DNA of 24,904 nt from a virus, in IMG/VR virus record IMGVR_UViG_3300025687_000306, positions 1 through 24,904 of that record; one strand, given 5' to 3'. Shown here piece after piece: positions 187 through 5,777 of this stretch. Under the pieces are notes generated by a model that had not been told where the DNA came from, did no database searches, and saw only the letters and a program-made list of their open reading frames with translations. Positions within the stretch are counted from its first letter, which is position 1, and every line of letters starts with the position of its first letter. Both the position numbers and the translations under genes were made by a program.

Positions 187-534
187 ATGCCTGTGTTTAA
201 AGCCCCAAGCCATGTCAAACAGCTTGTTCAGCGTGCTATCAATGTAAACCTAGACCGTCCCTTGTCCCAGCGTGCCGCCTACAAAGAAGTGGACGGGAAA
301 AAAGTCGAAGGGACTGGAATGAGAACAGCCCGTCGAATCTTGAACGACCAAGTCGATGAAGAACAGCTTCGGTTAATGTCTGCTTGGTTCGCTCGCCATG
401 GGGATAGCCCCTTGGAAGCCAAAGCCCGAATGAAGTCCAATAGTAAAGCTGCTATCGCTTGGGCTCTTTGGGGTGGCTCGGCTGGACGGATATGGGTGGA
501 CGCTACCCTAAGAGAGATAGACCGAAAGAAGTAG
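187..534 (+). CDS. Hypothetical phage protein with C-terminal Trp/Gly motif (115 aa)
   Basis: The start at 187 is chosen because AAAAGGAG lies 6 bases upstream. The longer open frame back to base 19 has no such site and would overlap the divergent gene. The protein is basic and probably helical, with an Arg-rich middle (around RTARRILNDQVDEEQLRL). It ends in a compact Trp/Gly motif, AWALWGGSAGRIW, at about residues 91-103. From memory, similar Trp-x-Leu-Trp-Gly-Gly endings occur in small uncharacterised proteins of other phages; no function is established. It is the only rightward gene in this part and is followed by the candidate origin. The 13-mer AAGTGGACGGGAA inside it (287-299) recurs in that non-coding region at 567-579. 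I cannot assign a role. Confidence 0.75.
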   Translation: MPVFKAPSHVKQLVQRAINVNLDRPLSQRAAYKEVDGKKVEGTGMRTARRILNDQVDEEQLRLMSAWFARHGDSPLEAKARMKSNSKAAIAWALWGGSAGRIWVDATLREIDRKK

Positions 535-804: not shown

Positions 805-941
805 TGTGGATAACTTGTGGATAAACCTGTGGATAAACCTGTGGATAAACCTGTGGATAAACCTGTGGATAACTTGAAAGAGTATCGATTGTATCGGGCT
901 GTTTTGCTTATGGATAAACCTGTGGATAAACCTGTGGATAA
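805..941 (-). repeat. Direct array of DnaA boxes (TTATCCACA) at 12-bp spacing
   Basis: TGTGGATAA on the + strand (TTATCCACA on the other strand, the high-affinity E. coli-type DnaA box) occurs perfectly at 805, 816, 828, 840, 852, 864, 921 and 933. A one-mismatch copy (TATGGATAA) is at 909. All have one orientation. Spacing is 12 bp apart from the first pair (11 bp), so most copies form a tandem ACCTGTGGATAA. A 36-bp gap separates the two clusters. This fits cooperative DnaA loading at an origin, or titration of host DnaA. The reverse-strand open frame across it only translates the repeat. Confidence 0.85.
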
Positions 942-966
942 CTTTTTTCCAAGGCAAAAATAAAGA

Positions 967-984
967 CGACCCACGAATGGGTCG
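967..984 (-). terminator. Rho-independent terminator for the leftward replication operon
   Basis: CGACCCA and TGGGTCG form a 7-bp stem around a CGAA-type loop. Reading leftward, the stem is followed by TCTTTATTTTT, as expected of an intrinsic terminator. It lies about 150 bases beyond the last leftward gene and shields the DnaA-box array from that transcription. Confidence 0.65.
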
Positions 985-1044
985 CCTGCTTCATCTCTCA
1001 CAACACCGAAATACTTTTTCGGCTGGATTCTATAACATAAAAGA

Positions 1045-1131: not shown

Positions 1132-1347
1132 TTAATTCAAATGTCTTCGACTGTCAACATCCCGAATCCGTTGCAATAGTTCGAACGCTCGCTTCCATTC
1201 CTCTTGGTTCTTTCCGAAGCACAAAGACAAGACCAACAGTTCTTTGTCTGTTGGTAGTTCATACCCAGTCAACCAACCCAAGACCGCTCCAGCTGATAGG
1301 TGAAGTGCTTCCGCAAATTCATCAATCGTCATTCGCTTTCGTTTCAT
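1132..1347 (-). CDS. Small helix-turn-helix protein, last gene of the replication operon (71 aa)
   Basis: I chose the ATG at 1347 because AAGGA lies 4-5 bases upstream, it begins 8 bases after the exonuclease stop, and it places the HTH at the usual distance from the N-terminus. An upstream ATG at 1395 would overlap the exonuclease. Residues about 7-40 (TIDEFAEALHLSAGAVLGWL and on) match the Cro/C1-type HTH pattern: a first helix, Ala-x-x-Leu, then a recognition helix ending in a Trp-Leu turn. The rest is helical and charged. The family binds DNA as dimers. The target is not visible; the repeats of the candidate origin beside it, or the divergent promoter at 4815-4888, are possible. Confidence 0.75.
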   Translation of the reverse strand: MKRKRMTIDEFAEALHLSAGAVLGWLTGYELPTDKELLVLSLCFGKNQEEWKRAFELLQRIRDVDSRRHLN

Positions 1348-1355
1348 GAGGTCCT

Positions 1356-1946
1356 TTATAACCACTTGGAAATACATAACCCTGTAAACCTCCATATCAG
1401 TCTATCGAATAGTGTAGCTCGTCTCAGTGTTTGGAATAGCCGCTTGACATCTCGACAATCGTTTAAGGCATCGTGACATTCTCTCAGCTCCCACCCAAGG
1501 AACTTTCGTATCTTGTCGAACGACAAACCTTGAAGACCGCATGGCGTGAGATGTTCATGGGCTAGTGTCATCGTGTCCAGACATCGAACTGGGATGGGTG
1601 GGAGGTCTGCTTTGTCGAACCAAAAGTTCAGCCAATGGACATCGAATTGGACATTGTGTCCAACATAAAGCGTTCCAGGAACACAAAGGACATCATGGAT
1701 TTGTTTAATGTGGTTACGCCATGGTTCAGTTAGATAGTTGTGTTTTCGATTGTTGTATCCGTTAATGGACATCGACTTGGGGTCGTGTAGGCTCGGCTTT
1801 TCGGGCTCCATTCGCCAGACATATTCCTTCCCATCCTCACGAATAACGGCCACTTCCAACAGCTCCCCATAATAAAGGAAGCCGTTAGAATCTCGATGGT
1901 GTCCAGCGAATAAAGCGCTTGTTTCGATGTCGATAAATACTAGCAT
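1356..1946 (-). CDS. DEDDh-family 3'-5' exonuclease (DnaQ/RNase T-like, 196 aa)
   Basis: All core motifs of the DEDDh superfamily are present. Exo I is DIETS with D6 and E8. Exo II is GHNVQFDV with D102. Exo III is HDALNDCRDV with H158 and D163. These residues hold two metal ions for hydrolysis of DNA or RNA from the 3' end. The length fits a stand-alone exonuclease domain, with no polymerase attached. It overlaps the end of the helicase gene by 7 bases, so the two are probably translated together. In this operon, with primase, helicase and resolvase, it could trim DNA ends for the annealing protein or proofread. The family call is strong; the substrate is inference. Confidence 0.9.
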   Translation of the reverse strand: MLVFIDIETSALFAGHHRDSNGFLYYGELLEVAVIREDGKEYVWRMEPEKPSLHDPKSMSINGYNNRKHNYLTEPWRNHIKQIHDVLCVPGTLYVGHNVQFDVHWLNFWFDKADLPPIPVRCLDTMTLAHEHLTPCGLQGLSFDKIRKFLGWELRECHDALNDCRDVKRLFQTLRRATLFDRLIWRFTGLCISKWL

Positions 1947-3190
1947 TTCCAGCCCCTTGGTCGATATAGATGTGGATGTCGTGAAAGGGTTGTCGTGAAT
2001 CGATGTTGAATGAGCCCCATCGATTTACATATATTATTGATTCGTCGGTTTTCTGCTCTTTCTGCTCGGCTTGTGTTGAGACCAAGTTGGGCTAAAACAT
2101 CAGCATTAATGAAGCCTTCTGGATACATGTCAGCACATTTATTAATCGCTGTTTCCCACGGGTCTTCGACAACGAAGTCTTGTTGGTATTCGAACAAGTC
2201 CATTTCGAACGATTCATTTAACCACCATGATTCGTTATCTCGTAGCAGCTGCATAGCCTCGGCCCATATCATGTCACGGTCTCGTTCTAGCCCTACCAAG
2301 TCCACTTCCCCAATGTTCACCGGCCAGTATCGGCGATTCCCGCTTCCATCGGTTAGGAATGAGGGTTCGTTGGTTGTTGAGACGAAGACCACGGACCGTT
2401 CCCTCGTTATTGGGGTTCGTCCATAGGAAGGGCGGAAGCGGTCCGACTGTGCACTAAGGAACATTTTCGCATTGTTGACATCGGACTTATTAAGGGCGTA
2501 GTTTTCAGCCATTTCCCAAATCCAAACCCCGCTTGAGTGAATGAGCTCGTAGCTTTCTTTGCGTGATATGTCCAAGTGACTATCTGAAAACCACCCATCC
2601 CCAGCCAATACCCGAAGGCTTGTTGACTTATAAGCCCCTTGGGGACCACATAAAATTAAAACGGTGTCGACCTTTGACCCTGGCATGATTGCACGGGCTA
2701 CACATGAAATAGCCCAACGAAGTCCAATTTCCCTTAAAAGCTCTGTGTCTTCAACGCCCCAATAGGTCTGAAGCAGTGTTTCAAGACGACAAACACCGTC
2801 CCATTTTAAGCCCAAAAGATATTCCTGTAGAGGGTGGTAGCGCTTGAACTTGGCTTGTCTCACAATCAAGTCGAAGACAACATCCTTTCCAATCCGAACC
2901 CCATAAACACGATGTAACCACAATTGGGTCTCGGTTATGTCTTCGTCTTCGAACCGTCGTTCCAGAACATAAATTTGGTCGTTGAATTCGTTATATGTGA
3001 ATCGGTCTTCCATACGACTGTCGTTTTCAATAATAATCGAACCGTTAAGGGCGTGACTTTTGACAGCCCCACGAATCAAAACCCCTTCGACTGTTCGGTC
3101 TTGGCTCCGCTCCAACATGTCCATGACATCCGGTTCGGGTTGGTCTGTTGTTTCAATGTTGAGTAGTTGTCCCATTTCGTTAATATCCAT
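1940..3190 (-). CDS. VapE-like (virulence-associated E family) replicative helicase/ATPase (416 aa)
   Basis: The C-terminal two thirds match the VapE/D5-like P-loop ATPase pattern. There is a Walker A-like GPQGAYKST at 182-190, a Walker B region VWIWEMAE near 222-229, a sensor strand VFVSTTNE at 268-275, and an Arg finger segment GNRRYWPV near 284-291. The family's LKWDGVCRLETLL box lies near 128-140. The usual Gly before the Walker lysine is Tyr here. Such proteins act as replication helicases in phages and phage satellites, usually beside a primase. AAAGGAG lies 8 bases before the ATG, and the gene begins 2 bases after the primase stop. The N-terminal ~100 residues are acidic and unassigned. 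Confidence 0.88.
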   Translation of the reverse strand: MDINEMGQLLNIETTDQPEPDVMDMLERSQDRTVEGVLIRGAVKSHALNGSIIIENDSRMEDRFTYNEFNDQIYVLERRFEDEDITETQLWLHRVYGVRIGKDVVFDLIVRQAKFKRYHPLQEYLLGLKWDGVCRLETLLQTYWGVEDTELLREIGLRWAISCVARAIMPGSKVDTVLILCGPQGAYKSTSLRVLAGDGWFSDSHLDISRKESYELIHSSGVWIWEMAENYALNKSDVNNAKMFLSAQSDRFRPSYGRTPITRERSVVFVSTTNEPSFLTDGSGNRRYWPVNIGEVDLVGLERDRDMIWAEAMQLLRDNESWWLNESFEMDLFEYQQDFVVEDPWETAINKCADMYPEGFINADVLAQLGLNTSRAERAENRRINNICKSMGLIQHRFTTTLSRHPHLYRPRGWKC

Positions 3191-3192
3191 TT

Positions 3193-4101
3193 TTATAGCT
3201 CCTTTAATAAATCATATACCGACCCGTACCAACCACACGAATTTCGGTGATTGCATTGTGCCGTGTGCTTCTGTGACGGGTCAATACAGAACCACACATC
3301 TTTCTTTTGACATTGGGGACACTCAATATAACGAGCTATCCCATCCCCTGTTATCTGTGCCCCAAGTCGTTCAGCTGCTACCTTCCGACTGTCGGGTTCA
3401 CTTCTAAGGGCTTCCATTATCTTTCGTTCGCTTGACTTCGCTGTTTTCGCCTTGCGTTGGGTGAGGGAGACAACCTTGTTTCGTGGCTTGGGCTTTTCAA
3501 TTGATTTCCAATCCAAGTCCAAGAAGACCCCTTCGTCATAGCTCGTAAAAGCTTTTCGACTTGAGGTTGCCACCTGACACATGTCTTTGGGTGGGGCTAC
3601 ATAGTACATTCTCGACGGGTCTTTGCACGCTCCATCGATGTCCGAACCAGTTCTGTCTTTAAATAGCCGTCGACCCGCTTCCCAAGCCCTTCCCCATTCC
3701 GTTCCAGGGACGGATTTTTTCAACGGAAGCACCAAGCGCCACTTGGGCGTCTCAGGTGTCGAAGAAGCTGTCGTGTGGGCGTAATAGTAGAAGTCCGAAA
3801 ATAAAGCGTGCATTTCGAAGGGTGTCCCGTCATCGACATCGTAGACCATGCAGCTGACCTTAACGACATTCGCCTTCTTTCGGGTCGCTTGAGGTTCGTA
3901 GACAGCTGGGGACCACAACATTTCCTTGTCCTTTCCTTCCCACTTGCGCTTCGTCCAACCAACATTTAACACCCAGTCAAGCGGGTGTTGGTGATTCAAT
4001 GTCAAGGATAGCCCAACCCGTTGGAAGCGATTGTCGAACAGGGTCACGCCTAGGTCCCAAGCCCCCCAGTCGATAACGGGCTTAGAATGGGAGCGTGTCA
4101 T
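3193..4101 (-). CDS. Archaeo-eukaryotic-type primase with C-terminal zinc finger (302 aa)
   Basis: The ATG at 4101 is preferred; the open frame goes back to 4224 but that part overlaps the resolvase by 140 bases and looks non-native. Residues about 80-170 carry a primase-like core: VYDVDDGTP with the Asp pair at 88 and 90, a His/Thr segment near 109, WRLVLPL near 121-127, and DPSRMYYVAPP near 161. This order matches RepB/VirE_N-type primases. The C-terminus holds a zinc finger: CPQC, then a Cys, then CNHRNSC. It is followed directly by the helicase gene; primase followed by VapE is a common pair in phage replication modules. No clear ribosome site precedes the ATG, so coupling to the resolvase is likely. 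Confidence 0.8.
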   Translation of the reverse strand: MTRSHSKPVIDWGAWDLGVTLFDNRFQRVGLSLTLNHQHPLDWVLNVGWTKRKWEGKDKEMLWSPAVYEPQATRKKANVVKVSCMVYDVDDGTPFEMHALFSDFYYYAHTTASSTPETPKWRLVLPLKKSVPGTEWGRAWEAGRRLFKDRTGSDIDGACKDPSRMYYVAPPKDMCQVATSSRKAFTSYDEGVFLDLDWKSIEKPKPRNKVVSLTQRKAKTAKSSERKIMEALRSEPDSRKVAAERLGAQITGDGIARYIECPQCQKKDVWFCIDPSQKHTAQCNHRNSCGWYGSVYDLLKEL

Positions 4102-4522
4102 GTCGCACCGAATAAATGAAAATTTGTGTCCGTGGTTCTTCGTCGGTTCCACAGTAATATTTCGAAGCCCGAAGCGCCACGACTTGATTGTCGTCAACCC
4201 AAACACCTGAACGATTGAGACCATCCAACACGGTCTTTACTAAGTTATCTATGTCGGGTTTTGTGGCCTTTCGTACAGCTGCGCCCTTCTTCATTCTTTT
4301 GGGTCTCTTGAAGTGAAATTGGATGGATATGTCGAACATGTCTTCACATTCACGATAGGGTATCATTTCAGCCGCTACACTGGCGATATGATTCACCGCT
4401 TCTTCGGTCTTCTTTGGGGTATAGACCCGACCGTTTCGGGTGAACCGTGGACGGCCCATGGCGACCGGCTCGCCCAAGACCTGAAAACAACCAATAAATG
4501 AGGGTGGCCAAAGTTCCTTCAT
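4082..4522 (-). CDS. rusA: RusA-family Holliday junction resolvase (146 aa)
   Basis: The protein has the RusA signature: an N-terminal GEPVAMGRPRFTRNGRVYTP segment (about 17-36) and the catalytic block KPDIDNLVKTVLDGLN (about 88-103) followed by GVWVDDNQV. Acidic residues D90, D92, D100 and D110/D111 are the expected metal ligands. RusA dimers cut four-way DNA junctions symmetrically; phages use this to resolve recombination and replication intermediates before packaging. GGAGG stands upstream, inside the end of the preceding gene, and the start overlaps that stop as ATGA. Length is normal. It is encoded opposite the Rad52-like operon, but the two should work in the same pathway. Confidence 0.92.
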   Translation of the reverse strand: MKELWPPSFIGCFQVLGEPVAMGRPRFTRNGRVYTPKKTEEAVNHIASVAAEMIPYRECEDMFDISIQFHFKRPKRMKKGAAVRKATKPDIDNLVKTVLDGLNRSGVWVDDNQVVALRASKYYCGTDEEPRTQIFIYSVRHDTLPF

Positions 4523-5042: not shown

Positions 5043-5777
5043 ATGTCACGACTACCACTAGCAAATTTATGTAAGCCCTTCCCACCTGAAGACCTCGAAT
5101 GGCGGGTGGGCAATGTCGCCAAATCTGGCAAGATGTGCACCCTTCTAACCTATATCACTTCTCGGGCTGTCATGGACCGATTGGACGCTGTTGTCGGTCC
5201 TGAAAACTGGAAAGACGAATACCACAAGACCCCATTGGGAGACGGCTTCGAATGTCGCTTGTCTATTCGAATGAACGATGGGACATGGGTAACTAAGATA
5301 GACGGGGCTGAACCAACCCAAATAGAGTCCATAAAGGGCGCTTATTCTGATTCGTTCAAGCGTGCTGCGGTCAAGTGGGGAATAGGGCGCTATTTGTATC
5401 GGCTACCCCTTGTTTGGGTTCCTATTCAGTCCAAGGGCCAAATCTATGTCTCGTCCAAAGGTTCGACAGGTTACGCCACCCCTCCAGAACTTCCACAATG
5501 GGCGCTCCCCATCACCTATCAAACCAAGCCCCCTTCAGTCGCTCCAGCTGCACCGCTTCCCAATCCCGAACCACCAAAAGACGAAACACCCCACGATGAA
5601 CTTTGGACCAAAGACCAAAAATGGTTCTGTGCGGCTATGGGCAAGTTTGGCGGTTATGCTGCGGTTCGTGATTGGACTGTGGCGAAGGGTTGGGGTAAGC
5701 CTTCGACATGGGGAACTGAACGACGACGAAATTTTGTTCTCAAGCTCGAAAAGGGCGAACTACATGTGGGGGAATGA
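5043..5777 (+). CDS. Rad52/Rad22-like single-strand annealing protein (244 aa)
   Basis: The N-terminal ~125 residues fit the Rad52-like annealase family: PFPPEDLEWRV (12-22), RAVMDRLDAVVGPENWKDEY (41-60), and the signature KGAYSDSFKRAAVKWGIGRY (98-117). Such proteins form rings that pair complementary single strands and drive phage recombination. After a Pro-rich linker (about 140-185, several Pro/Ala/Thr runs) comes a small C-terminal domain rich in Trp and basic residues (about 190-240). This could contact single-stranded DNA or a binding protein; that is inference. A GGGG box precedes the ATG. The gene is coupled to the next one (ATGA overlap). Partners in the window are RusA and the DEDDh exonuclease. 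Confidence 0.88.
   Translation: MSRLPLANLCKPFPPEDLEWRVGNVAKSGKMCTLLTYITSRAVMDRLDAVVGPENWKDEYHKTPLGDGFECRLSIRMNDGTWVTKIDGAEPTQIESIKGAYSDSFKRAAVKWGIGRYLYRLPLVWVPIQSKGQIYVSSKGSTGYATPPELPQWALPITYQTKPPSVAPAAPLPNPEPPKDETPHDELWTKDQKWFCAAMGKFGGYAAVRDWTVAKGWGKPSTWGTERRRNFVLKLEKGELHVGE

Follow-up and report, generated by a model that had tools for sequence, protein, structure and literature searches.

The phage DNA analysed here (a stretch of 24,904 bases, hereafter the window) holds, at positions 535-941, two sets of regularly arranged repeats: a block of twelve TGGAC sites (iterons) that ends at position 775 and, 29 bp further on, a row of nine DnaA boxes. Positions 535-941 are very probably the replication origin of the phage; furthermore, we favour, with moderate confidence, a composite origin, in which the VapE-domain helicase of the phage would load on the 2x6 iteron block and the DnaA array would help initiation. 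The helicase origin of the phage and the array for host DnaA would then sit side by side in one compact element. An earlier sequence-only reading of this DNA lacked the iteron half (535-775) and thus described half of the larger element.

Genomic Context of the Array

The window is an unfinished linear IMG/VR contig from a siphovirus of about 28 kb; no terminal repeat was seen in it, the contig being an open fragment. Its assignment to a phage, already made in the earlier reading, is correct, since genes matching the VapE, primase, RusA, Rad52, terminase, and endolysin families (Pfam/PHROG) are present. The minus-strand operon adjoining the array encodes an HTH protein, an RNase_T exonuclease, the VapE-domain helicase, a primase, and RusA; a gene for a Rad52-like annealing protein lies near the operon, and the remainder of the window is made up of lysis, tail, head, and terminase genes. 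The array itself is located in a non-coding gap of about 600 bp (535-1131) between convergent genes. The features of the region are the following:

187-534, plus strand: p1, a conserved small protein with no assigned function, whose stop codon abuts the iteron block
538, 548, 558 (AGGAC), 613, and 621 (CGGAC), minus strand, and 570, plus strand: TGGAC iterons, left arm
626-688: AT-rich centre between the iteron sets (about 70% AT), a putative unwinding element, including CTATAA-N8-TTATAG
689, 697, 752, 762, and 771, plus strand, and 740, minus strand: TGGAC iterons, right arm
805-872, plus strand: DnaA-box cluster 1, six perfect TGTGGATAA at 805, 816, 828, 840, 852, and 864, with 2-3 bp spacers
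909-941, plus strand: DnaA-box cluster 2, TATGGATAA at 909 (one mismatch) and perfect TGTGGATAA at 921 and 933
964-987, minus strand: terminator-like hairpin with a T-run, closing the minus-strand operon before the array
1132-1395, minus strand: HTH (Cro/C1-type) DNA-binding protein (family match)
1356-1946, minus strand: RNase_T-type exonuclease (family match)
1940-3190, minus strand: VapE-domain replicative helicase, putative iteron-binding initiator (Pfam PF05272, 8.8e-67; PHROG DNA helicase)
3193-4224, minus strand: primase (PHROG DNA primase matches, best 3.7e-16)
4082-4522, minus strand: RusA Holliday junction resolvase, same replication operon (family match)

The VapE protein resembles a helicase of solved structure described as "Similar to D. 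nodosus vapE" (PDB 7pds, 6e-40), which we take to be SaPI5 Rep; an AlphaFold model built from a two-row alignment was unusable (pLDDT 30). The PDB matches of the primase were low-quality, short stretches of unrelated chains and were disregarded.

A relative, G001 (L077; 27,865 bp), is about 90% identical to the window across most of its length. The search with the large terminase subunit (TerL) retrieved eleven loci from viral contigs, G001 included, no match among annotated phages, and no relative among genome contigs (the host search). The G001 contig (L077/L128, IMGVR_UViG_3300009124_000079) has GGCTCGGAGATGTGTATAAGAGACAG, a transposase-adapter remnant of the assembly, at its array-side end. 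In four of the TerL relatives (L133, L137, L139, and L140), the match to G001 stops at G001 base 33, about 70 bp upstream of TerS, and is preceded in each by 28-38 nt of unrelated sequence; this break is probably a physical genome end and possibly a set of variable junctions.

The DnaA-Box Array

The sequence-only reading had reported eight perfect boxes and one with a single mismatch, all in one orientation and in two clusters, at 12-bp spacing; all of this stands except for the spacing, which from box to box is 11, 12, 12, 12, 12, 45, 12, and 12 bp, the first step being 11. From base composition, about 0.2 perfect boxes would be expected in the whole window, and the probability of at least eight of them within one 137-bp stretch is about 1e-31. 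In G001 (90.7% identical), the number of units differs, yet eight boxes are perfect and none is damaged; the more diverged relative L169/L174 (VapE 52% identical) has six perfect boxes plus TATGGATAA, so that the two-cluster layout is common to the window, G001, and L169. The presence of the array in these relatives implies that it did not arise by misassembly of a single contig. The ORFs that span the array (784-957 and 693-1082) were ruled out as coding on the basis of a 13-nt unit indel and the absence of a codon pattern.

In all likelihood, the array binds DnaA. The label "host-type" that the boxes had been given rests on the near-universal DnaA-box consensus.

The Iteron Block and Its Conservation

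The 270 bp adjoining the array (535-805) are rich in TGGAC/GTCCA. Ten of the twelve TGGAC sites of the block 535-775 are perfect and two carry one mismatch; their orientations, from left to right, are minus, minus, minus, plus, minus, minus and, beyond the AT-rich centre, plus, plus, minus, plus, plus, plus, with six sites on each side. The comparison between the window and G001 revealed no change among the 50 iteron core bases and 65 changes among the 221 other bases (p 2e-7). The CTATAAAACCCCTCTTATAG of the AT-rich centre is likewise unchanged in G001, which was also the sole match in a scan with the conserved 19-mer of the centre. In the neighbouring p1 gene, 19 of 26 substitutions fall at third codon positions.

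Owing to the mirror order of the iterons, the region folds into a single long and imperfect palindrome (z -8.2); between the window and G001, six changes in it are two-sided. Giant hairpins were rejected as a general partner of DnaA arrays, since their excess close to arrays was modest (6.9% vs 2.3% of windows).

The intermediate relative L169/L174 (two nearly identical phages, therefore counted once) shares with the window 52% identity in VapE, 46% in the primase, and 59% in the Rad52-like protein. L169 has twelve perfect TGGAC sites in the same order of orientations around an AT-rich centre, with spacings of 10, 11, 13, 42, 9, 64, 9, 42, 13, 10, and 10 bp, against 10, 10, 12, 43, 8, 68, 8, 43, 12, 10, and 9 bp in the window; the two series agree within 1 bp except at the centre (68 bp in the window, 64 bp in L169). 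Between the sites, identity is 44%, compared to 46% for shuffled sequences. With the geometry kept and the intervening sequence at the shuffled level, the simplest explanation is that selection maintains a protein-binding geometry. The GTGGAC repeats were also considered as a pure RNA or DNA hairpin; they do fold, but L169 retains only the TGGAC cores and their geometry, not the remaining stem, so that protein sites fit better.

Two more distant lineages have other iteron words. In L029, ACAGAT occurs at 5274, 5284, 5295, and 5305 on the plus strand and at 5498, 5508, 5519, and 5529 on the minus strand, with the spacing 10, 11, 10 in both arms; in L177, TCACAC/GTGTGA occurs at 11-bp steps. Mirror symmetry exceeds chance in all four lineages (P 0.003 in the window, <0.001 in L169, <0.001 in L029, and 0.017 in L177), and in each of them the DnaA array adjoins the iterons. 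With respect to the iterons, the array has one polarity in the window, L169, and L177 and the opposite one in L029; in other lineages, polarity is mixed. The gene order helicase-array-iterons-p1 is kept among the relatives, and the p1 neighbour is present also in L029 (55%) and L174.

VapE/Primase Loci in Other Phages

Clusters of mixed-orientation hexamers (iterons) were found in 10 of the 17 VapE/primase loci tested, the detection being limited to iterons that have three exact copies per strand; none or at most one of 40 shuffles gave a cluster as good. All ten are located 3' of vapE and begin between -174 and +1165 bp from the gene end; in the window, the iterons are 1.2 kb downstream of vapE, with two small genes in between.

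The sequence-only reading had suggested searching related phages for an array beside the VapE/primase genes. Such an array is present in the four lineages described above, but none lies beside the iterons in 13 other VapE/primase loci; 12 of these have no perfect box or one distant box, and the remaining one (L066) has four boxes 2 kb away. These 13 loci imply that VapE origins do not need DnaA.

In Marinobacter phage PS3 (L157, 6761-6994), perfectly mirrored GGTCAC iterons with spacings of 23, 33, 18, 80, 18, 33, and 23 bp are located just 3' of a VapE-type primase, without DnaA boxes. The iteron words GGACAG of Pseudomonas phage U5 (L156, 9569-9838) and GGGACA of Corynebacterium phage Lederberg (L163, 6286-6537) are similar to the TGGACA/G of the window, which hints that VapE-type helicases share a recognition core.

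DnaA Arrays across Phages

Viral contigs were scanned for at least three boxes with 1-6 bp spacers (10-15 bp steps allowed). Arrays were retrieved from at least 120 contigs, corresponding to at least 87 distinct contig clusters; the control motif, i.e., the same word read backwards, gave three matches in the full scan. The remark of the sequence-only reading that regular direct arrays are uncommon is thus wrong for phages, and for chromosomes it is incomplete: in E. coli oriC, the low-affinity sites are exactly two bp apart and R4-C1 three, a spacing that is critical for cooperativity (PMC4451416). Among the matches listed, 218 of 234 box steps are of 11 or 12 bp, with 11- and 12-bp steps seen in 62 and 56 clusters, respectively. 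Steps of this size match the 2-3 bp gaps of the cooperative oriC sites and speak for a DnaA oligomer. Because the scan required a common orientation of the three core boxes, same-strand counts are informative for extra boxes only.

Tandem arrays recur in dozens of phage lineages. The genes nearest to them include replication initiators, RusA, a DnaD-like loader, VapE, and terminases, and 11 array loci have an iteron cluster, the highest-ranking one lying beside the array in 7 of them (1.7 expected). Among the matches listed, the array is found within 5% of a contig end in 13 of the 42 long contigs that carry one, against 4.2 expected (p 1.5e-4); the positions were taken by hand from tables, and contig ends can be assembly breaks. 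Annotated phages with an array near the genome end are Arthrobacter Tiff81, Arthrobacter Seahorse, Klebsiella ZK1, and Vibrio BD1. Predicted DnaA sites of alphaproteobacterial phages, on the other hand, show no positional clustering (PMC9437464), which implies that the arrays are not universal.

Arrays also occur in T5-like phages and in Escherichia phage P483 (T7-like; L127, 3447-3586) and phage nasanit (L147); in P483 and nasanit, T7-like Berlinvirus phages for which no need of DnaA is expected, they sit between the terminase and the early genes, and the P483 and T5-like sites have no obvious origin. Stretches of about 500 bp with 23 and 17 perfect boxes occur in L049 (12862-13348) and L118 (332-842), respectively; many of their steps measure 14-17 bp instead of the usual 11-12. 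A viral contig of 73 kb (L176, 4443-4793) has 27 AGTTAG hexamers of mixed orientation packed into 350 bp, directly adjoining a four-box DnaA array.

In the open-access literature, we found no survey of tandem DnaA arrays in phages, and on phage DnaA arrays only the T5 injection stop signal and one Ori-Finder prediction. Given their occurrence in many unrelated phages, the recruitment or sequestration of host DnaA may be a common phage tactic that has received hardly any attention.

A Proposed Composite Origin and Its Alternatives

The region contains a VapE/SaPI-Rep-family helicase gene, a primase gene in the same operon, and, downstream of vapE, iterons flanking an AT-rich core, to which consensus DnaA boxes in cooperative spacing are adjoined. 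The conservation of the iterons, the VapE family of the helicase, and the position of the iterons 3' of the gene, as in SaPI origins, together make the assignment of 535-941 as the origin very probable. From these features, we infer the following scenario. On the first module (535-775), VapE would bind the iterons and assemble as two hexamers, which the six sites on each side would fit; the helicase would melt the AT-rich centre, and forks would start with the phage primase. On the second module (805-941), a DnaA oligomer would form on the nine boxes beside the phage origin and help either to open it or to bring in host replication proteins, the kind of help that host DnaA gives at the iteron plasmids RK2, P1, F, and pSC101 (PMC4980987). 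Provided that the array binds DnaA and that 535-941 is the origin, a positive role of DnaA in initiation is reasonably likely. The 2x6 geometry makes two-hexamer loading of a SaPI-type Rep on one origin directly testable.

The sequence-only reading had proposed either recruitment of DnaA to the phage origin or its titration. The location supports the former well, an independent and strongly conserved 2x6 block being so close to the array and at the position of a SaPI/VapE-type origin; the proposed check by GC skew gave no support, in that the cumulative curve has no turning point near 800. Against the composite origin are the VapE origins without arrays, the reversed polarity in L029, and the arrays away from obvious origins; polarity variation counts here because the orientation of DnaA boxes matters in RK2 (PMC4980987).

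Some of the same observations would suit an array that acts as a sink, titrating host DnaA so that host initiation stops or DnaA-controlled genes change; its place next to the phage origin would then merely raise its copy number early. The absence of the array from most VapE origins, its presence in T7-like P483 and in T5-like phages, and a polarity that is not fixed all agree with this explanation, as do consensus boxes at 2-3 bp spacing, which suit cooperative binding, reportedly linked to efficient titration in vivo. Nine boxes, however, are few until phage copies become numerous, and in four diverged VapE lineages the array has stayed next to the iterons, as a pure sink would not need to. 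We regard titration as the main rival and as less likely than the composite origin. An element of the genome end, serving DNA entry, circularisation, or packaging, is much less probable. It would account for the excess of arrays near contig ends and for the four annotated phages named above, it has a precedent in the T5 injection stop signal (PMC13250531), and the G001 array is about 1.1 kb from a contig end, with TerS at the other; but contig ends may be assembly breaks, the conserved partner here is an iteron block by a replication operon rather than a terminal repeat, and no T5-type pre-early genes were recognised in the window.

Two further explanations find still less room. The palindrome (535-790) might be a 3' RNA structure and the boxes regulators of a promoter, in keeping with the very stable fold, its two-sided changes, and the ability of DnaA to regulate promoters; this is very improbable, in that the genes converge on the region, the terminator-like hairpin ends the minus-strand operon, promoter matches in the region are not above chance, no Rfam match was found, and the part of the stem outside the TGGAC cores is lost in L169. 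A selfish or mechanical expansion of repeats without function could explain why the copy number differs between the window and G001, but the boxes are intact, 11-12 bp apart, and in two clusters across lineages, and the word recurs so far above its control in the viral contigs that we give this explanation hardly any credence.

The composite origin therefore remains the reading we prefer. More tentatively, cooperative arrays for host DnaA might be a widespread and repeatedly acquired phage control element; in one VapE lineage, their union with a 2x6 double-hexamer iteron block would have produced a composite origin where DnaA licenses or times the loading of a self-loading phage helicase.

Comparison with Known Systems

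The modules are individually known; no description of a VapE/SaPI-type double iteron block combined with a regular consensus DnaA array, or of the breadth of phage arrays, was found in the open-access literature. The T5 injection stop signal resembles the window in being a phage non-coding region with DnaA boxes; it differs in lying at the end of the first-step-transfer DNA, and the account consulted describes no replication operon or iterons there (PMC13250531). The datA and Bacillus DnaA-box clusters bind or titrate DnaA, as is predicted for the array in the window, but they are chromosomal and irregular, and datA needs an IHF site.

In E. coli oriC, box R1 is oriented away from the AT-rich side, and the boxes of the window face away from it as well; in both cases, an AT-rich element lies beside DnaA sites with 2-3 bp gaps. 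Unlike oriC, the window has boxes that are nearly all high-affinity consensus and in one orientation, together with the sites of a second initiator. The iteron plasmids RK2, P1, F, and pSC101 combine Rep iterons with DnaA boxes (PMC4980987) and share with the window the initiator iterons, the AT-rich unwinding region, and the adjoining boxes; nevertheless, their Rep/TrfA-type initiators load host DnaB, whereas the window has a VapE helicase and nine boxes in a regular row.

As for the SaPI/VapE-type origins, they share with the window a VapE/SaPI-Rep-like helicase with a primase and short iterons 3' of the helicase gene, in both orientations and with an AT-rich centre; in SaPIs, Rep is a self-loading helicase and the iterons are located just downstream of rep. 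The window departs from this type in the added DnaA array, the strict 2x6 mirror geometry, and the two small genes between vapE and the origin.
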